64,000 nt of DNA, from positions 1 to 64,000 of the forward strand of contig NZ_JAGEKR010000016.1 of the NCBI RefSeq assembly GCF_017565405.1, written 5' to 3'. A program made the position numbers and the translations under genes. This document shows, one piece after another, positions 24,274 to 63,937 of this stretch; position 1 is the first letter of the stretch, and each line of letters starts with the position of its first letter. The stretch comes from Allobranchiibius sp. CTAmp26. GTDB lineage: Bacteria; Actinomycetota; Actinomycetes; Actinomycetales; Dermatophilaceae. The notes below the pieces were generated by a model. It ran no database searches and was not told the DNA's origin. It saw nothing but the letters and a program-made list of their open reading frames with translations.

Positions 24274-24347
24274 GCCGAGTGGCATACATATGTATCGAGT
24301 GCACCCCTTACAACTGCGCCACTGGAAACATATGTATGCCACTCGGC
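24274..24347. repeat. long hairpin, family A copy 1 (probable terminator)
   Basis: The outer arms GCCGAGTGGCATACATATGT (24274-24293) and its exact complement (24328-24347) form a perfect 20-bp stem; the inner segments pair partly through a GAGTG/CACT block. The hairpin begins 7 bp after the phosphatase stop, so it likely ends that transcript. Three related copies lie at 25411-25482, 47127-47198 and 57984-58055. Confidence 0.75.
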
Positions 24348-24399
24348 GGGGCTGTGGATGACTTCTGCGGCGGACCGTTCGTTCCTGTCACCGTGCGGG

Positions 24400-25449
24400 A
24401 TGGACGCACCCCCCTTCTCCGGCCGACGTCGCCCCCGAGGATGCGTCGAACGGGTCGACGCCGACGCTGCTGCAGCCCTCCCGTTGGTGGCCGGAGGGCT
24501 GTGCGTTGTAACCGCGGCCGAGGACGGCCCGGCAGCGCAGCAAGCGCACGCCGCCCGGTTGCAGCGCGTCCGTCGCGGCGCGTACGTCGATCGCGATGGC
24601 TGGGAGGAGCTGTCCACCGATGCGCAGCTTCTCGTGCGGGCGCATGCGATCTCTGACTCGGCCGAGCGGGGACGCCTGTTCTCCCACTGCACGGCGGCGC
24701 GGGCTTGGGGTCTGCCCACCATCGGCAGGCAGCAGTCGTCCGTCGAGATCTTGGTCGACGACGGCCGGACGGGCAGATCACCTGGGCTGATTCGTCGACG
24801 CACCCAGAACCTGCCCGACGGCGTCGAACTGGACGGCCTGCTCGTCACCAACCCCGCGCGTACCGCGGTGGACATCGCGAGAGTGCAGTCGCTCGCTTCA
24901 GGGGTGAGCGTGATGGATAGCGCCCTTACCCGAGGACTCGCATCGCGCGACGAGCTCCAGGCCGAGGTGTGGGCTGTGCCACGCGGCGGGAGGGGCCGGC
25001 AGTTCGCCGCGCTGGCACTCGCGCTCGCTGACAAGGGGGGTGAGTCAGCGGGCGAGTCCCTCAGTCGGGTGCAGCTCTACATGGCGGGTTTTCCGCGCCC
25101 GAGCCTTCAGGTGGAGTTCCGCGACGACCAGGGATTCATCGGACGGGTTGACATGTTCTGGAGGGAACTTGGCGTCGTCGGAGAATTCGACGGCAAGACC
25201 AAGTACGGCGTCGACGCCAGGCAATCGTCAGCGCAGGCGGCAGAAATCCTCTGGCGTGAGAAGCAACGCGAAGACCGCCTCCGGGCACTAGGTCTCACGG
25301 TGGTCCGGTGGATCTGGTCCGACGCGTGGGATGTGACCCCGCTGCTGCGACGTCTGCGCGCAGCGGGGCTACGCACCGGGCATTCGCAGCAGTGGCCAGT
25401 GCCCGACCTGTCGAGTGGCAGGGAAACTCGTCGAGTGGCGCACTCCTAG
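24400..25449 (+). CDS. AbiEi-antitoxin-domain / DUF559 protein with a restriction-endonuclease-like C-terminus (copy 1)
   Basis: 349 aa from the ATG at 24400, or 363 aa from 24358; neither has a clear ribosome site. The N-terminal part resembles the winged-helix AbiEi-type domain (LQRVRRGAYVDRDGW, SHCTAARAWGLP, VTNPARTAVDIAR). The C-terminal DUF559 domain shows a Vsr-like nuclease signature: GRVDMFW, then GEFDGKTKYG, then REDRLRALGLTVVRW. Such genes are common and multicopy in actinobacteria; no function is established, and AbiEi-type antitoxin activity cannot be assumed. The last 13 codons and the stop (25411-25449) lie inside the left part of hairpin A copy 2, and hairpin A copy 1 precedes the gene. 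A related gene is at 35656-36579. Confidence 0.7.
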   Translation: MDAPPFSGRRRPRGCVERVDADAAAALPLVAGGLCVVTAAEDGPAAQQAHAARLQRVRRGAYVDRDGWEELSTDAQLLVRAHAISDSAERGRLFSHCTAARAWGLPTIGRQQSSVEILVDDGRTGRSPGLIRRRTQNLPDGVELDGLLVTNPARTAVDIARVQSLASGVSVMDSALTRGLASRDELQAEVWAVPRGGRGRQFAALALALADKGGESAGESLSRVQLYMAGFPRPSLQVEFRDDQGFIGRVDMFWRELGVVGEFDGKTKYGVDARQSSAQAAEILWREKQREDRLRALGLTVVRWIWSDAWDVTPLLRRLRAAGLRTGHSQQWPVPDLSSGRETRRVAHS

Positions 25450-25482
25450 GGGGTGCACTGGAAACATATGTATGCCACTCGG
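25411..25482. repeat. long hairpin, family A copy 2, overlapping the end of a coding region
   Basis: The right arm (GAAACATATGTATGCCACTC, ending about 25480) and the centre match the other copies, but the outer left arm is degenerate (TCGAGTGGCA kept, the ATACATATG part replaced). The left half codes for the C-terminus of the DUF559 protein and the loop supplies its TAG stop at 25447-25449. It lies between convergent genes and may terminate both. Confidence 0.65.
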
Positions 25483-28021: not shown

Positions 28022-28105
28022 GGGGGTCGTGCTGCCGGCTGATGTTTCTGGCGCCTGGACGAGAGCCGCGTGCCTCGTCTGCCCCTTCTGCGCCACCTCG
28101 CATGT

Positions 28106-28345
28106 CGGGAAGTGACCGCAGTGCCGATTACCGACCCGTGCGCGTACGCCGACCGCAGGAAAGTGACCGCAGTGCCGATTACCGACCCGGTCGCGTACGG
28201 CGACCGCAGGGAAGTGACCGCAGCGCCGACAAGCCACCCGGTCGCGTACGGCGACCGCAGGGAAGTGACCGCAGAGTCGACAACCCACCCGTGCGCGTAC
28301 GCCGCACGTCGGAAAGCGACCGCAGCGCCGACAACCCGCCACGAA
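28106..28345. repeat. 51-bp tandem repeat array 1 (about 5 units)
   Basis: The motif AGTGACCGCA occurs at 28111, 28162, 28213 and 28264, with AGCGACCGCA at 28315: an exact 51-bp period. Each unit also carries GCCGACAACCCACCC-type and GCGTACGC blocks; units 2 and 3 are nearly identical, the outer ones more divergent. The same unit occurs at 39767-39861 and, inverted, at 62097-62286. There are no unique spacers, so this is not a CRISPR array. Confidence 0.9.
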
Positions 28346-28443
28346 AGCGCACGAACTCACCCGTTCGGGAAAGGCACCCTGTGTCCCACGCCACATCGGC
28401 CGGGTGAGGCCCACCTAAGCGTGGCCTGAGAGCCGGTGCGCAG

Positions 28444-35498: not shown

Positions 35499-35526
35499 CC
35501 CCCCCCCGCCCCAGCGCACCGCGGTT

Positions 35527-35566
35527 GTCCGCATTTCCGTGCGGACGGGTGCGCGAAAGTGCGGAC
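35527..35566. repeat. hairpin element, family B copy 1
   Basis: GTCCGCA (35527-35533) can pair with TGCGGAC at 35540-35546 or with a second TGCGGAC at 35560-35566; the two right arms are separated by GGGTGCGCGAAAG. It lies 28 bp after the pyrD stop. The second copy at 36586-36625 is identical except for the six loop bases. Confidence 0.75.
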
Positions 35567-35655
35567 ACTCGCGGCCCGGCCCGTCGTGCACATCCCCTGA
35601 GCTCGTCCACACCCGTCCTGGCAGGAGATGCGGTAGGTACGTCGCAGCCTCTTGC

Positions 35656-36579
35656 ATGGCGCGCATGCACCCGACGTACGACGCCGCAGGTCGACTCCAT
35701 CAGCTGGCGGGGGACACAGACGGTGTCATCACGCGACGAGACGCCCGGCACGGCGGCGTCACCCGACGACGGATCGCTCAGGAGGTCGCCCGGGGGCGTT
35801 GGGAGGTAGCGCGACGTGCAGTCAAGATCGTCGGTGCGCCCGCAACGCTGGAGAGTGCGTGGCGGCTCGCGCTCGCTGGTGCGTCGCCGCGGGCCGCGCT
35901 CGACGGTGTGAGCGCCCTGCAGTGCGCGGGCATGGTGGGCTTCGAAGATCTCGTCCACCTCAGCGTCCCCAAGGGTGATCGCGTCATACGTGATCAGGGG
36001 GTACGCGTACACGAGTTGCGCTCCTGGGACGACGCCGACGTGCTGGAACTCCCGGTACGGCGCGTGCGACCCGAGCTCGCCACCCTGCGCGCCGCGCGCT
36101 GGGCGGTCAGCGAGCGCGCCGCCCAGACCATCCTCGCGATGTCCGTGCAGCAGGGGCTGACCACCCCGCAGCGCCTGATCACGATGCTCGAGCGATTACC
36201 GAGATCCCGTCGCGCCGCTCTCATCGCCGCAGCCGTCTCGGAGATCGCCGGCGGATCGCAGGCACTGGGGGAGCTGGATCTGGTGCGGCTGTGCCGATCG
36301 CACGATCTGCCGGTGCCGGCGAGACAACAGCTGCTACGTCGCCCGAGTGGCACGTATTACCTGGACGCCCGGTTCGCGGCGTACGCCCTCACCGTCGAGG
36401 TGGACGGTCTGGGCCATCGCGACATCTCCCAGACGAGGGTCGATCAGCGCAAGCACAACGAGCTGCAGATCGACGGCGACGTCGTACTGCGGGTGATGTC
36501 GATGGACCTGCGTGATGACCCCGAGCCTTTCCTGCGGCAGCTGCGCCGGGCACTGATGGCGCGGGGTTGGGGTGGGTAG
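35656..36579 (+). CDS. AbiEi-like / DUF559 protein with restriction-endonuclease-like C-terminus (copy 2)
   Basis: 307 aa from the ATG at 35656 (an ATG at 35665 is also possible; no strong ribosome site). The N-terminus resembles the AbiEi-type winged helix (LAGDTDGVITRRDARHGGVTRRRI, VARGRWEVARRAVKIV). The C-terminal domain shows YYLDARFAAYALTVEVDGLGHRD, then RQRKHNELQIDGDVVLRVMSMDL in outline (actual spacing DQRKHNELQ), consistent with the DUF559/Vsr-like nuclease fold: Asp in LDARF, Glu-Val-Asp, then a basic residue. Architecture matches the gene at 24400-25449 although the sequences are diverged. It is bracketed by identical family B hairpins 90 bp upstream and 7 bp downstream. Confidence 0.7.
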   Translation: MARMHPTYDAAGRLHQLAGDTDGVITRRDARHGGVTRRRIAQEVARGRWEVARRAVKIVGAPATLESAWRLALAGASPRAALDGVSALQCAGMVGFEDLVHLSVPKGDRVIRDQGVRVHELRSWDDADVLELPVRRVRPELATLRAARWAVSERAAQTILAMSVQQGLTTPQRLITMLERLPRSRRAALIAAAVSEIAGGSQALGELDLVRLCRSHDLPVPARQQLLRRPSGTYYLDARFAAYALTVEVDGLGHRDISQTRVDQRKHNELQIDGDVVLRVMSMDLRDDPEPFLRQLRRALMARGWGG

Positions 36580-36585
36580 GCGAGT

Positions 36586-36625
36586 GTCCGCAACCCCGTG
36601 CGGACGGGTGCGCGAAAGTGCGGAC
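36586..36625. repeat. hairpin element, family B copy 2
   Basis: Same arms and spacing as copy 1: GTCCGCA (36586-36592), TGCGGAC (36599-36605) and TGCGGAC (36619-36625), with the same 13-nt segment between the right arms. It begins 7 bp after the DUF559 stop. Confidence 0.75.
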
Positions 36626-36664
36626 AACCGGCGCGGTGAGCGGAGCCGATAACCTCGGGGCATC

Positions 36665-39144: not shown

Positions 39145-39764
39145 CGAAGCGAGTCGGTGGTCGTCCGGTCATGGCGACGACCGCGCTCGCGGTCGGGGCG
39201 GCGGTCATGTGCGGCTGCGGCACGCAGAGCGCACCCGGTGCGCCGTCCTACACCCCGTACAGCTTCGTCACGCAACCCAGTTCGGCTGCGCCGCAGAGCG
39301 CTCCGCTGTACGACGAGGCGACGATGGATCTGGCCCAGTCCATCCAGGCTGCCGGAAGCGGCGCCCGTTACGCGAACAGCTTCGGGCTGGTGCGGCTCAA
39401 CGATTCGCAGCGCGGGATGAGGGTGGAGATGACCGACCTGGCGCTCGCCCGGAAACTGGTCGCGGGTGCTCGCGCCGGCCATCCGACGTGGGCCCGTGTG
39501 CCGGTCGCCCTGGTCGAGGTGCCCTACTCGATGAAGCGGTTGGAGGCGGCCGAGAAGGCCGTACCGGATGCGGACTGGAAGCGGTATCAGCTGGTCAGCG
39601 TCGGGGTCGAGACCTGTCGCCACCTGTCGGTGACGTCGTCCGACGTGCGGCTCGAGGATCCGGTGGGCGGTCGGGCGGCGCGGACCAAGCTCGCGCAGCG
39701 GCTCGCGCACGCGGTCGGGGTGCCGGTGGTCGTGACCTACTCCACGCCTGCGCACGCCGAGTAG
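39141..39764 (+). CDS. putative lipoprotein coupled to the RNase-barstar pair
   Basis: 207 aa from the GTG at 39141, whose GTGA overlaps the barstar stop. The N-terminus has a signal peptide ending in AAVMCGCG, a plausible though imperfect lipobox (Met at -1 is unusual). The rest (YDEATMDLAQSIQAAGSGARYANSFG, GMRVEMTDLALARKL, VETCRHLSVTSSDVRL) shows no family I recognise; it looks like a small alpha/beta extracytoplasmic domain. Position suggests a link to the RNase system, for instance cell-surface immunity or display, but chance operon membership is possible. Array 2 of the 51-bp repeat begins 2 bp after its stop. Confidence 0.6.
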   Translation: MTKRVGGRPVMATTALAVGAAVMCGCGTQSAPGAPSYTPYSFVTQPSSAAPQSAPLYDEATMDLAQSIQAAGSGARYANSFGLVRLNDSQRGMRVEMTDLALARKLVAGARAGHPTWARVPVALVEVPYSMKRLEAAEKAVPDADWKRYQLVSVGVETCRHLSVTSSDVRLEDPVGGRAARTKLAQRLAHAVGVPVVVTYSTPAHAE

Positions 39765-39766
39765 CT

Positions 39767-39861
39767 GCGCCGGGCGCAGGAAAGTGACCGCAACGCCGAC
39801 AACCCACCCGGGCGCGTACGCCGGGCGCAGGAAAGTGACCGCGGGGCCGACAACCCACCCC
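39767..39861. repeat. 51-bp tandem repeat array 2 (about 2 units)
   Basis: AGTGACCG occurs at 39783 and 39834, exactly 51 bp apart, each followed by GCCGACAACCCACCC. A partial unit (GCGCCGGGCGCAGGAA) precedes the first. Orientation is the same as array 1. It fills most of the gap between the lipoprotein gene and the amidohydrolase gene. Confidence 0.9.
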
Positions 39862-39909
39862 ACCCGACCCACCTGCGACCGGCTCCATAGGGAGAGCAAC
39901 TAACATCGG

Positions 39910-47126: not shown

Positions 47127-47198
47127 CCGAGTGGCATACATATCTTTCGGGTGCACCCCCTGTAGGTGCGCCACTGGAAACATCTGTATGCCACTCGG
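47127..47198. repeat. long hairpin, family A copy 3, between convergent genes
   Basis: CCGAGTGGCATACATAT starts the left arm at 47127 and TGTATGCCACTCGG ends the right arm at 47198; inner blocks GGGTGCACC and GGTGCGCC also pair, with a TGTA loop. Located between cdd (plus) and the lipoprotein gene (minus), it is a natural bidirectional terminator. Confidence 0.75.
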
Positions 47199-50272: not shown

Positions 50273-50288
50273 CCTGCTTTCCCGACCA

Positions 50289-50348
50289 TGACACAGGTGA
50301 GCCCTGGAGCCACAGGTATTCCTGCGGCTCCCGGACTTACCTGTGTCA
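50289..50348. terminator. 60-nt hairpin between convergent add and RDD genes
   Basis: Left arm 50289-50316 and right arm 50321-50348 pair over 28 positions with three mismatches and one G-T wobble, closed by loop TATT. The outer part is TGACACAGGT/ACCTGTGTCA and the middle GGAGCC/GGCTCC. It has the same design as the family A and C hairpins but a different sequence. Confidence 0.75.
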
Positions 50349-52230: not shown

Positions 52231-52276
52231 TTGGACATGCACGCCGGGGCAGATGTGCCCCGGTGTGCATGTCCAA
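52231..52276. repeat. long hairpin, family C copy 1
   Basis: TTGGACATGCAC begins the left arm at 52231. The left arm (52231-52251) pairs with 52256-52276 over 21 bp, broken by a single G-T wobble, around a GATG loop. It lies 8 bp after the SpoIIM stop and 6 bp before the convergent RidA stop, so it can terminate both. Confidence 0.8.
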
Positions 52277-52282
52277 AACGGG

Positions 52283-52687
52283 TCAGATGAGTGCGGCGAC
52301 GGCTTCGACCTCGACGAGCTGGTCCGGGTAGCCGAGCACGGTCACTCCGAGGAGGGTGCTCGGCGGATCATGATCGCCGAACGCGTCCCGCACCACCTGC
52401 CACGCGGTCACCAGGTCGTGCCGGTCGGTGGTCGCGACGAGTACGCGGGTGGAGACGACGTCCGTCAGCTCGGCCCCCGCGTCGGCCAGTGCGATCTCCA
52501 GGTTGAGCATCACCCGGTGCGCCTGAGCCGCCACGTCGCCGGGAGCGAGCGTCCGGCCCCCGTCGTCCAAGGGGCAGGATCCGGCGAGGAAGATCAGCCG
52601 CGCGTCGGCGGGTGCGGTTGCGGCGTAGGCATATTCGACGGTGTCAGTCAGCGTGGAGGAGCGGATCAGTTGCACGGCGGAGGTCAC
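52283..52687 (-). CDS. RidA/YjgF/UK114 family protein
   Basis: 134 aa from the GTG at 52687, preceded by a GAGGGTGGGG ribosome site. A longer frame from an ATG at 52714 would start inside hairpin C copy 2 and is rejected. Family features: LIFLAGSCPLDDGG, DVAAQAHRVMLNLEIALADAGAELTDVVSTRVLVA and TLLGVTVLGYPDQLVEVEAVA. The usual C-terminal Arg of the imine deaminase site (in an RhxP context) is not evident in STLLGVTVLG, so enzymatic activity is uncertain. RidA proteins remove reactive enamines or imines. It is bracketed by two near-identical hairpins. Confidence 0.8.
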   Translation of the reverse strand: MTSAVQLIRSSTLTDTVEYAYAATAPADARLIFLAGSCPLDDGGRTLAPGDVAAQAHRVMLNLEIALADAGAELTDVVSTRVLVATTDRHDLVTAWQVVRDAFGDHDPPSTLLGVTVLGYPDQLVEVEAVAALI

Positions 52688-52704
52688 CGCCCCACCCTCT
52701 CGCC

Positions 52705-52754
52705 TTTTGGACATGCACGCCGGGGCAGATGTGCCCCGGTATGCATGTCCAAAA
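52705..52754. repeat. long hairpin, family C copy 2
   Basis: Nearly identical to copy 1: TTGGACATGCAC starts at 52707 and the right arm ends at 52752, with outer T/A pairs extending the stem to 52705-52754; one base differs (GTATGCATG instead of GTGTGCATG). It lies 10 bp after the DUF58 stop on the minus strand and upstream of RidA, so it should end the MoxR operon. Confidence 0.8.
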
Positions 52755-57983: not shown

Positions 57984-58055
57984 CCGAGTGGCGTACATAT
58001 GTTTCGAGTGGCGCACTCCTACGGGGTGCACTCGAAATATATGTACGCCACTCGG
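57984..58055. repeat. long hairpin, family A copy 4
   Basis: The most symmetrical copy: CCGAGTGGCGTACATATGTT starts at 57984 and pairs nearly throughout with the segment ending GTACGCCACTCGG at 58055, around a TACG loop (stem about 33 bp with few mismatches). It lies 8 bp after the stop of the short aldehyde dehydrogenase gene (minus strand) and just upstream of the MoxR operon promoter, so it probably insulates the two. Confidence 0.8.
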
Positions 58056-61426: not shown

Positions 61427-62083
61427 ATGCCGTCCCGACTGGCTCACACCCCCGACACCACAGCCCAGCGCCGGCAATTCCGGCAGACCGGGTCCATGGC
61501 GCTCGGCATCGTCACGATCGCGGTCTGCGCGCTGATCCTGCTGCTCGGCGTCCGGACGCTGGGCCGGCTGCATGTGCTCGACGTCGCCCTGCCCGTGGCC
61601 GTCGCCGTGTTCGCCTGGGCGATCTTCGTGCGCCCGTGCGTCGTCCTCACCGACCAGGCGATCGTGATTCGCAACCTCGTGCGCGACGTGCAGATCCCCT
61701 GGCAGTGCGTGAAGTCGACGCAGTCGCGGTGGAACCTGAAGGTGATCACCACCGGCGACGCGGGATACGGATCGTGGGCCATCACCAGCCAGCGCCGCCG
61801 CACGCCCCGCGTGCAGCGGTTGGGCTTCGGGGGCGGCGGCATCATGCCGTCGCGGGCCGAGCGTAGGCAGCCGATCGACACGGCGGCCTACCGGAACGCC
61901 CCCGAGCGTCCCCAGTCCGCGGCCGCGGTCGCCGCTCGGATCGGCGAGGAGAAGGCGCTGTTCGATCAGCGGCCGACGGACCTGGGCACTGGCGACGCCG
62001 TCGTACGCGTGCAACCCGCCTGGTGGGGCATCGCGGCTCTCGTCGGGGCCGTGGTCCTGGTGGTCGTCGGCATTCTGGGCTGA
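61427..62083 (+). CDS. PH-domain membrane protein
   Basis: 218 aa from the ATG at 61427. Two membrane helices near the N-terminus (about residues 25-65, with ALGIVTIAVCALILLLG and VALPVAVAVFAWAIF), then a bacterial PH-like segment PCVVLTDQAIVIRNLVRDVQIPWQCVKSTQSRWNLKV, a basic Gly-rich region and a final helix (GIAALVGAVVLVVVGILG). Such small proteins are frequent in actinobacteria without known function. It ends 14 bp before array 3 of the 51-bp repeat. Confidence 0.8.
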   Translation: MPSRLAHTPDTTAQRRQFRQTGSMALGIVTIAVCALILLLGVRTLGRLHVLDVALPVAVAVFAWAIFVRPCVVLTDQAIVIRNLVRDVQIPWQCVKSTQSRWNLKVITTGDAGYGSWAITSQRRRTPRVQRLGFGGGGIMPSRAERRQPIDTAAYRNAPERPQSAAAVAARIGEEKALFDQRPTDLGTGDAVVRVQPAWWGIAALVGAVVLVVVGILG

Positions 62084-62096
62084 GCCGCCCCCGGCG

Positions 62097-62286
62097 CGTG
62101 GGTTGTCGGCGCTGCGGTCACTTTCCTGCACGCGCATACGCCGGCCGGGTGGGTTGTTGGCGCTGCGGTCACTTTCCTGCACGCGCGTACGCCGGCCGGG
62201 TGGGTTGTTGGCGCTGCGGTCACTTTCCTGCACGCGCATACGCCGGCCGGGTGGGTTGTCGGCGCTGCGGTCACTTTCCTGCACGC
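62097..62286. repeat. 51-bp tandem repeat array 3 (4 units, inverted)
   Basis: GCGGTCACTTTCCTGCACGC (complement of the array 1 motif) occurs with starts at 62114, 62165, 62216 and 62267, an exact 51-bp period. Units are almost identical to one another, the most homogeneous of the three arrays. It fills the convergent gap between the PH-domain gene and the mutase gene. Confidence 0.9.
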
Positions 62287-62302
62287 AAGCCCGGCGGCAG
62301 CG

Positions 62303-63937
62303 TCACTCCGGCGCGGTCAGGCGCTCCATGTCGGCGCGGATGGCCGCGAGCCGGCTCTGTGCGCTCGCCCGGTCGGCGTCGATCGCCTCCAGGTAGACCT
62401 TCAACTTGGGCTCGGTGCCGCTCGGCCGCACGATCACGCGGGTGTCGTCCGCCAGCAGATAGCGCAACCCCTCGGTGGGGGGCAGGCCGCCGTCACCCCG
62501 CGCCAGGTCATCGATGGACGAGACGCCCTGTCCGCCGACGCTGCCGGGCGGTGTCGTCCGCAGACGCGCCATGACGTCCCCGATCACCCCCAGATCCTCG
62601 ACTCGCACCGAGAAACTGTCGGTCAGGTGATGGCCGTACGTCGCGGCGAGTTCGTCGAGCGCGTCCAGGAGAGTGGCGCCACGGCCGGCGAGCGACGCGG
62701 CGTACTCCGCTACCAGCAGCGCCGCGCTCACGCCGTCCTTGTCGCGCACCTGCGTCGGATCCACGCAGTAGCCGAGCGCCTCCTCGTAGCCATAGACCAG
62801 GCCGGGCACCCGGCTGATCCACTTGAAACCGGTCAGCGTCTGCTCGTGGCGCACGCCGTGGGCCGCGCACATCGCGGCCAGCAGCCGGGACGACACGATC
62901 GAGTTGGCCATCACCGCGTCGGCCGGCCAGTCCCGGCGCAGCAGGTGGTCGCCGAGCAGCGCACCGACCTCGTCGCCGCGCAGCATCCGCCACCCGTCGG
63001 TGTCCGCCACCGCGACGGCGCATCGGTCGGCGTCGGGGTCGTTGGCGATGACCAGGTCCGCATCGACCTCTCGCGCCAGGTCGAGGGCGAGGTCGATCGC
63101 ACCTGGCTCCTCGGGGTTGGGGAAGGCGACCGTCGAGAACTCCGGGTCGGGCGTCTCCTGCTCGGCGACCGAGTGCACATCGTGGAAACCGACGCGGGCC
63201 AACGCATTTCGCGCCACCTGGGATCCCACGCCATGGAGGGCGGTGTGCACGATCCGTAGCGCACGCGGACCGCCGGGGGTGACGACGCGGCATACGGAAT
63301 CGAGGTAGTCCGCCACGATCCCGTCGTCGAGGGTCTGCCAGCCGTCCTGCGCCTGTGGCACGGAGGCGGCGTCGGGCACCGCGGTGATGGCGTCGGCGAT
63401 CTGCTCGTCGACCGGCGACACGATCTGGCTGCCGTCGCCGAGGTAGACCTTGTAGCCGTTGTCCTGCGGCGGATTGTGGCTCGCGGTGACCATGACGCCG
63501 GCATCAGCGCCGAGATCGCGGATCGCGAAGGCCAGCACCGGTGTCGGCAGCGGGTGCGGCAGCACCATCGCGTGCCCGCCGGCCGCCGTCACGACCGCCG
63601 CGGTGTCGCTGGCGAAGACGTCGGAGTTGTGCCGGGCGTCGTAGCCGATCACCACGGTGGCGTCGCGCGCGCTGCGCTGCTCCTGCAGGTACGCCGTGAG
63701 GCCGGCTGCTGCTCGCAGCACGACGACACGGTTCATCCGGGCCGGCCCTGCGCCCAGCGCGCCGCGAAGGCCGGCGGTGCCGAACTGCAGCAGTCCCGCG
63801 AACCGGTCCTCCAGGTCGGCCACCGCATCGGCGTCGCCGGCTTGCACGGAGGTCAGCACCCCCTCCAGCTCAGCGCGGGTCTGCGGGTCGGGGTCGTCGG
63901 CGATCCAGGCCCGCGCCCGCGCCTCGAGGGAGGCCAT
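62303..63937 (-). CDS. pmmB: phospho-sugar mutase (phosphoglucomutase/phosphomannomutase family)
   Basis: 544 aa from the ATG at 63937; the frame extends to 63976 into the upstream gene. The phosphoserine loop is VTASHNPPQDNGYKVY, the metal loop NDPDADRCAVA, the sugar-binding loop GYEEALGYCVD and the phosphate-binding loop RPSGTEPKLKVYL. It corresponds to actinobacterial PmmB, which lies next to a purine nucleoside phosphorylase gene. In this setting it may interconvert (deoxy)ribose-1- and -5-phosphates, linking DeoA and PNP to DeoC; glucose or mannose phosphates are alternatives. Confidence 0.9.
   Translation of the reverse strand: MASLEARARAWIADDPDPQTRAELEGVLTSVQAGDADAVADLEDRFAGLLQFGTAGLRGALGAGPARMNRVVVLRAAAGLTAYLQEQRSARDATVVIGYDARHNSDVFASDTAAVVTAAGGHAMVLPHPLPTPVLAFAIRDLGADAGVMVTASHNPPQDNGYKVYLGDGSQIVSPVDEQIADAITAVPDAASVPQAQDGWQTLDDGIVADYLDSVCRVVTPGGPRALRIVHTALHGVGSQVARNALARVGFHDVHSVAEQETPDPEFSTVAFPNPEEPGAIDLALDLAREVDADLVIANDPDADRCAVAVADTDGWRMLRGDEVGALLGDHLLRRDWPADAVMANSIVSSRLLAAMCAAHGVRHEQTLTGFKWISRVPGLVYGYEEALGYCVDPTQVRDKDGVSAALLVAEYAASLAGRGATLLDALDELAATYGHHLTDSFSVRVEDLGVIGDVMARLRTTPPGSVGGQGVSSIDDLARGDGGLPPTEGLRYLLADDTRVIVRPSGTEPKLKVYLEAIDADRASAQSRLAAIRADMERLTAPE

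Follow-up and report, generated by a model that had tools for sequence, protein, structure and literature searches.

AbiEi-Vsr genes between paired palindromes in actinobacteria: candidate REPtron-like units with an unrelated enzyme

The cassette in the window and its counterparts in the same genome

The window, the whole stretch of 64,000 nucleotides analyzed here, carries on its plus strand a gene at 24400..25449 that is located between two palindromes of the same repeat family, family A, one upstream at 24274..24347 and one overlapping the 3' end at 25411..25482 (no strand is assigned to the palindromes and repeats described here). Its predicted product combines an AbiEi-like N-terminal part with a Vsr/EDxHD-like nuclease domain; the start codon is uncertain and may be the ATG at 24400 or the in-frame ATG at 24358. 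The palindromes are 72 to 74 nt long. The upstream copy is near perfect, with a folding energy of −43.7 kcal/mol (z −10), and the 3' copy (−32.2 kcal/mol, z −4.1) has a degenerate 5' arm, much of which is lost; its clear match to the upstream copy comprises 25431-25482 (87%), and the TAG stop codon of the gene falls within it. The AbiEi-Vsr gene is alone between the palindromes, with no second gene there, and the neighbors of the cassette are a phosphatase-like frame, judged by eye, and a DeoR regulator. No Rfam RNA family matched in the window, and 19 other loci yielded one tRNA only.

Two solo palindromes of family A, at 47127..47198 and 57984..58055, fold as well and form one repeat family with the flanking pair, all at 62 to 82% identity to the first copy. 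The first of them is common to the sister species, genome G001, and the second is absent from the same site there. Strong palindromes occurred six times in the window and not once in any of three Markov shuffles (3/3), and family A, counted with the flanking pair, occupies at least 31 distinct places in the genome. A preliminary description of this DNA had reported the duplicated hairpin around the gene and both solo copies, and was right about them. It had also inferred that the gene arrived as a cassette whose target was a terminator hairpin, duplicated in the process on either side of the gene. Both other genomes of the genus compared, G001 and G002, contain the gene between palindromes at this location, with both flanks aligning in G001 and the right flank only in G002. 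The gene is therefore no recent arrival, and a recent insertion of this gene is ruled out by an observation that the preliminary description itself had named as speaking against its proposal. The window locus is best explained as one resident copy of a self-contained unit composed of palindrome, AbiEi-Vsr gene, and palindrome.

Ten class genes were found in this genome (G000). Eight of the nine that could be evaluated are flanked by a repeat pair, and the pair has a different sequence for each gene. The exception, L016, is not bracketed, and L020 is located at the start of contig C28 with only its 3' palindrome visible. The pair of L018 is short (23 nt, 91%), and in the case of L017, 51-nt tandem arrays take the place of the single hairpins on the two sides. 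Other 51-nt tandem arrays, of a family different from those of L017, are found in the window at 28056-28361, 39728-39880, and 62039-62344 and are dispersed in the genus; the corresponding site in G001 lacks the array at 62084-62299, and none of the genus loci examined provided a cognate gene for the window arrays.

A second cassette of the window contains a gene of the other subfamily at 35656..36579 on the plus strand, between a repeat of the family TGTCCGCA...TGCGGACA at 35521..35567 and its 3' counterpart at 36580..36626 with 89% identity. Palindromes of the family cognate to L020 enclose a passenger gene: they are located at 52231..52276, to the left, and at 52705..52754, to the right of a RidA-family gene at 52283..52714 on the minus strand. 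Both palindromes are kept in G001, where the RidA gene appears degraded as judged by eye. The two further cases to which the preliminary description alluded are probably these, 35521-36626 and 52231-52754.

Copies away from the gene were present for eight of the nine repeat families of this genome that were tested in a sample of 577 kb that was partly chosen for its family A copies, with none for L018 and none in shuffled sequence. A palindrome scan of about 691 kb, comprising the contig of the window and 20 stretches of which several were already known to hold family A copies, returned seven bracketed intervals. Two contained class genes, two contained other genes (RidA and an alpha/beta hydrolase), and the other three intervals were of different kinds: one was a weak pair, and inspection by eye attributed the other two to probable coding noise and to ordinary terminators. 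The same sequence holds two further class genes, the one at 35656, with a bracketing repeat below the palindrome threshold of the scan, and the unbracketed L016. The hydrolase gene, assigned by eye, lies between two palindromes at G000:C8:170495-171573 and is absent from G001, where a short one-arm remnant is kept.

Predicted structure of the AbiEi-Vsr protein

The AlphaFold2 model of the window protein, for which an alignment of 72 proteins was used, has high confidence (pLDDT 86.3, pTM 0.84) except for residues 1-28, where confidence is low. It resembles the AbiEi antitoxin (6y8q) over residues 32-211 (Z 11.1, rmsd 5.8, 164 aligned) and, over residues 216-325, the catalytic domain of I-Bth0305I (3r3p; Z 10.3, rmsd 2.4, 92 aligned) as well as Vsr (Z 9.6, rmsd 2.9, 106 aligned). 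Foldseek alone found no PDB match for the window protein at an E value of 0.001 or better, the top match being AbiEi at 0.0023, and a profile search for sequence relatives with solved structures gave none that was convincing. The predicted product of the gene is thus a fusion of an AbiEi-antitoxin-like part with a nuclease fold of the Vsr/EDxHD type, and the class was named AbiEi-Vsr.

Residues D251, E262, D264, G265, and K268 are invariant among the 72 aligned proteins, a conservation that is partly built in, for one locus scan used E-x-D-G patterns, while the HMM-found sets are free of this bias. Eleven of the 80 loci, with broken or partial frames, were left out of the protein set, and L087 was subsequently left out of the alignment. 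In the second subfamily, found by profile and without the E-x-D-G bias, D237 and E248 are kept in 29 of 29 proteins; its model resembles AbiEi more closely (Z 13.4, rmsd 3.8, 183 aligned) and the nuclease 3r3p more weakly (Z 6.3). The frame of the class gene is broken in six of the 80 loci (L060, L067, L077, L080, L098, and L110), as expected of decaying selfish genes.

The gene had been labeled DUF559 in the preliminary description. Part of this label stands: the E-x-D-G signature of DUF559 (PF04480) is common to the class, and three of the ten class genes of the genome pass the cut-off of this family, with weak matches in others. The window protein itself does not match, remaining below the Pfam gathering score, and one of the 72 aligned proteins matches at an E value of 0.01. 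Four class proteins compared with NCBIfam had no match. PADLOC models label the protein AbiEi, and AbiEi-type systems appear in that defense database.

Pairing and specificity of the repeats across actinobacteria

To score pairing, the flanks of each gene were aligned locally with one another, and the best score was taken. At a score of at least 22, 59 of 76 loci from named records were paired, compared with 9 of 1756 control window pairs, the 9 coming from two loci. The second subfamily within the taxonomic family gave 20 of 27 loci compared with 1 of 365 control pairs; 28 of 1500 cross-locus pairs also passed in this set, which is read as some related loci sharing repeats. A sample of the phylum, from which L271 of the window's own genome had been removed beforehand, gave 15 of 26, compared with 0 of 312 controls and 0 of 1500 cross-locus pairs. 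Scores below 18 were obtained for 14/76, 6/27, and 7/26 loci of the three sets, respectively, after 4 of 80 named-record loci near contig ends, 3 of 30 second-subfamily loci, and 3 of 29 phylum-sample loci had been left out. Random genes are not bracketed as often as class genes, and the data support the view that paired palindromes are a property of the AbiEi-Vsr class and not of genes in general.

In a sample of 149 genomes of the phylum, 40 contain the class (E 1e-25), with up to 13 matches per genome. Of the 80 named-record loci, 78 are actinobacterial by their titles and two, L054 and L099, come from metagenome bins titled otherwise. Carriage of the class by plasmids or phages was considered and rejected: five weak matches only were found in plasmids, and tblastn at an E value of 1e-5 gave no relative in phage records.

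The repeats are specific for their genes and often dispersed in the genome of that gene. The repeat of L089 from Pseudonocardia spinosispora is present in full or almost full length at no fewer than 46 places in its own genome (40 of 113 candidates scored, pair beside the gene included) and had no match in 15 other genomes, two of them from Pseudonocardia. The L118 repeat occupies seven places in its own genome, again including the flanking pair, and was not matched in any of 15 others. Comparison of the 75 loci with a repeat pair indicated that repeats and proteins diverge together. Repeats were alike, with a score of at least 18, in 6/6 pairs with a protein identity of at least 80%, in 69% of 13 pairs at 60 to 80%, in 7% of 85 pairs at 50 to 60%, in 2% of 384 pairs at 40 to 50%, and in 0.3% or less below 40%. 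The Spearman correlation of repeat similarity with protein identity was 0.29, and the largest value in 999 permutations was 0.23.

Palindromes of the L089 family contain the 9-mer ACACCGCGC four times, twice per arm at a distance of 20 nt, with hardly any variation among the 20 copies compared. An internal direct repeat at an offset of 19 was present in 29 and at an offset of 20 in 18 of 98 paired loci, with 1.1 and 1.6 expected; the remaining paired loci had no repeat at these offsets at that stringency. This spacing looks like a recognition pattern for a protein on double-stranded DNA, and the palindromes look more like cognate sites of the protein than like a generic terminator target. The palindrome as a bare hairpin structure was rejected as a description, since the four 9-mers of the L089 family are conserved and the spacers vary as judged by eye.

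The data lend no support to the proposal that a terminator is targeted and a copy left on each side. Besides the palindromes being gene specific, no target-site duplication was found around 20 palindromes of the L089 family, solo or flanking (mean junction repeat 2.4, expected 2.23), which also distinguishes them from classical insertion sequences; the evaluation of target-site duplication at single sites of the window's own genus is suggestive only. The flanks of about 20 copies, inspected by eye, vary and contain no conserved GTAG or CGTC tag at the foot of the hairpin. TGATCA palindromes were observed beside 7 of 20 copies of the L089 family (L152, L170, L171, L172, and others), compared with 16 of 220 background windows, as if these copies were nested inside another repeat family.

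Of 20 copies of the L089 repeat, 15 had the 3' end of an open reading frame no more than 90 nt away, compared with 35 of 100 control positions. This location bears on the alternative that the unit serves autoregulation only, the flanking palindromes being operators for AbiEi-like repression, the scattered copies forming a regulon or acting as decoys or terminators, and the nuclease having an unrelated duty such as defense. The clear AbiEi fold in both subfamilies (Z 11.1 and 13.4) and the naming of the protein as AbiEi by PADLOC models suit this alternative, as does the binding of two 23-bp inverted repeats by AbiEi and of four by Rv2827c, described in PMC7319586. The second copy is found at the 3' end, which has no need of an operator, and in the L089 family the preference of copies for the 3' ends of open frames is against this alternative, too; nor would autoregulation explain the exchange and inversion of cassettes described below. 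We regard it as unlikely.

Exchange, turnover, and comparison with known systems

Sister species differ in their solo palindromes, which are gained and lost. About 260 kb of G000 were aligned with G001, and the palindromes of G000 were counted. Ten had no counterpart at the same site in G001, and five of these, at 50279, 67293, 86262, 181724, and 297558, had none in G002 either, as judged by eye; their absence from both genomes suggests a gain in G000. The site of 181724 in G001 contains a weak palindrome of another sequence. Within the window, the solo palindrome at 50289..50348, of an unassigned family, is not seen at its site in G001 and G002, again by eye. The palindrome at 246789 is present in G002, which suggests a loss in G001, and a possible relic of that at 243662 is found in G002.

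Whole cassettes are exchanged and inverted, with breaks often near the palindromes. G001 has no L013 cassette; the two flanks are almost adjacent there, and the foot of one palindrome is retained. A diverged class gene with a different palindrome occupies this site in G002, and the L013 repeat has matches at about a dozen places in G001. Empty sites in relatives, which the preliminary description had suggested looking for, are thus represented by the near-empty L013 site, while the window locus is occupied in both congeners. The class gene that G001 carries at the L014 site is another one, with reversed orientation. Of the pairs formed by 102 loci, 43 had both flanks in common, 38 of them with the same gene orientation and five, from three distinct sites, inverted. 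Twelve pairs, one among these 38, can be aligned continuously from flank to flank across the gene and look vertical. Every break is within 111 nt of a palindrome in four inverted pairs, and the fifth has one break 1.8 kb away; in the pairs with the same orientation, the breaks are 0 to more than 2 kb from the palindromes, many at hundreds of bases or more.

The synonymous divergence (dS) of the gene exceeded that of both flanks in 24 of 24 pairs tested, for example 0.71 compared with 0.06 and 0.28, in a set of overlapping pairs, many from one Cellulomonas site, that were chosen with both flanks at 83% or more, with flank frames picked automatically, NG86 values that saturate, and five loci with broken or partial frames excluded. 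Exchange, inversion, and the raised dS of the gene indicate that the unit between the palindromes often has a history of its own. Fast evolution of the protein in situ as the sole cause of the divergence is disfavored, since the synonymous divergence is raised, too. The preliminary description was right about the gene class with paired palindromes and about its mobility in general, in agreement with the exchange and the near-empty site.

Intact active sites and palindromes occur together in the genus. At a score of at least 18, 17 of 22 loci were paired (L041 at exactly 18): all 16 with an intact D, E, D and one (L037) of six with a changed position. Fisher's exact test, by hand, gave about 0.0002 for this comparison, in which several loci are orthologues and not independent. 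This has to be considered for a second alternative, that hairpins are spread passively by host replication and repair and that homologous recombination inverts, deletes, or swaps the genes between them, the nuclease gene being a bystander. Two unrelated genes, for RidA and the alpha/beta hydrolase, are indeed bracketed, and the scars are compatible with deletion. A bystander role does not agree with the strong enrichment of palindromes at class genes, their gene-specific sequence, their co-divergence with the protein, or, within the limits of orthologous loci, the association with an intact active site, and we regard it as very unlikely.

Similarly improbable is a defense nuclease, restriction-like or anti-phage, that is anchored or stored by the palindromes, with the fast change of gene and palindrome reflecting an arms race. 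AbiEi-type systems are listed in a defense database, and the divergence of the gene, its exchange at fixed sites, and the up to 13 matches per genome would fit such a nuclease; yet the cassette contains a single gene with no partner toxin seen at the window locus, tblastn at an E value of 1e-5 revealed no phage-encoded relative, and the nuclease would find targets in self DNA at the scattered cognate sites.

A REPtron-like unit driven by the AbiEi-Vsr nuclease is the probable explanation for these data; binding, cutting, and the causation of movement by the protein are what we infer. In many palindromes, each arm presents a motif of about 8 to 9 nt twice at 19 to 20 nt, offering up to four sites. 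AbiEi and Rv2827c bind inverted repeats, and the AbiEi-like part is therefore the likely reader of the palindrome; by analogy with these two proteins, it probably binds the motif sites. The Vsr-like domain may then nick or cut at the palindrome, and repair of the cuts by the host could copy, move, invert, or remove the palindrome or the whole cassette. Solo palindromes near gene ends would be non-autonomous offspring. The chances are about even that this extends further, to one class of selfish DNA across the phylum: an AbiEi-Vsr nuclease, without relationship to known transposases, would read a palindrome with four sites, disperse it, and cause palindrome-bounded cassettes to be exchanged and inverted, as a non-homologous counterpart of REPtrons.

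Several observations count against the REPtron-like explanation. The L013 and hydrolase sites in G001 keep a remnant of the palindrome, which suits deletion as well as excision. L037 has palindromes despite its changed active site, two ordinary genes are bracketed, no target-site duplication was found in the L089 family, and 12 pairs look vertical. The occupied window locus in both congeners, the loci with pairing scores below 18, the distant breaks in many exchange pairs of the same orientation, and the weak Foldseek E values likewise count against it. To our knowledge, there is no strand-transfer chemistry known for a Vsr-type nuclease fold.

The unit points to unrecognized selfish or mobile DNA that resembles REP repeats but has an unrelated enzyme. 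No link of AbiEi-Vsr or DUF559 genes to palindromic repeats was found in the open-access literature of PubMed Central, which does not establish its absence from print. REP-type palindromes are widespread bacterial repeats. If the interpretation is true, they would have a second, unrelated enzyme partner with a repeat grammar of its own, many unnamed actinobacterial genes would obtain a role, and the scattered hairpins near gene ends would be explained. Ready-made pairs of proteins and sites would also be at hand for studying how REP-type repeats spread.

Among the known systems, the EDxHD homing endonuclease I-Bth0305I and Vsr share the fold of the catalytic domain, and the near-empty site and the exchange at fixed sites recall homing. 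In contrast to homing, the AbiEi-Vsr protein contains an AbiEi DNA-binding part and is associated with palindromes instead of an intron or intein, with many cognate sites in self DNA. The AbiE type IV toxin-antitoxin systems share the AbiEi fold and, as described in PMC7319586 for AbiEi and Rv2827c, have two or four inverted repeats adjoining the gene; AbiEi-Vsr differs by its additional nuclease domain and by repeats that are located on both sides and dispersed. An AbiEii nucleotidyltransferase toxin was not seen beside the gene at the window locus, where the phosphatase-like neighbor was judged by eye.

The closest likeness is that to REPtrons. As described in PMC3733652 and PMC8266576, these are single genes bracketed by palindromes, with dispersed cognate copies often near gene ends and repeat-specific enzymes that co-evolve with the repeat; the enzyme partner described there is the HUH protein RAYT, and some REP-type palindromes are apparently without a dedicated transposase (PMC3733652). 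AbiEi-Vsr genes are likewise bracketed by cognate palindromes, the copies of which are dispersed, repeat specific, and co-diverging. The differences are that the L089 family, the one inspected, lacks a GTAG tag, that the enzyme is predicted to consist of an AbiEi-like part and a Vsr/EDxHD nuclease fold and not of an HUH/Y1 transposase, and that the palindromes are actinobacterial, often 60 to 75 nt long, and contain a motif repeated at 19 to 20 nt.
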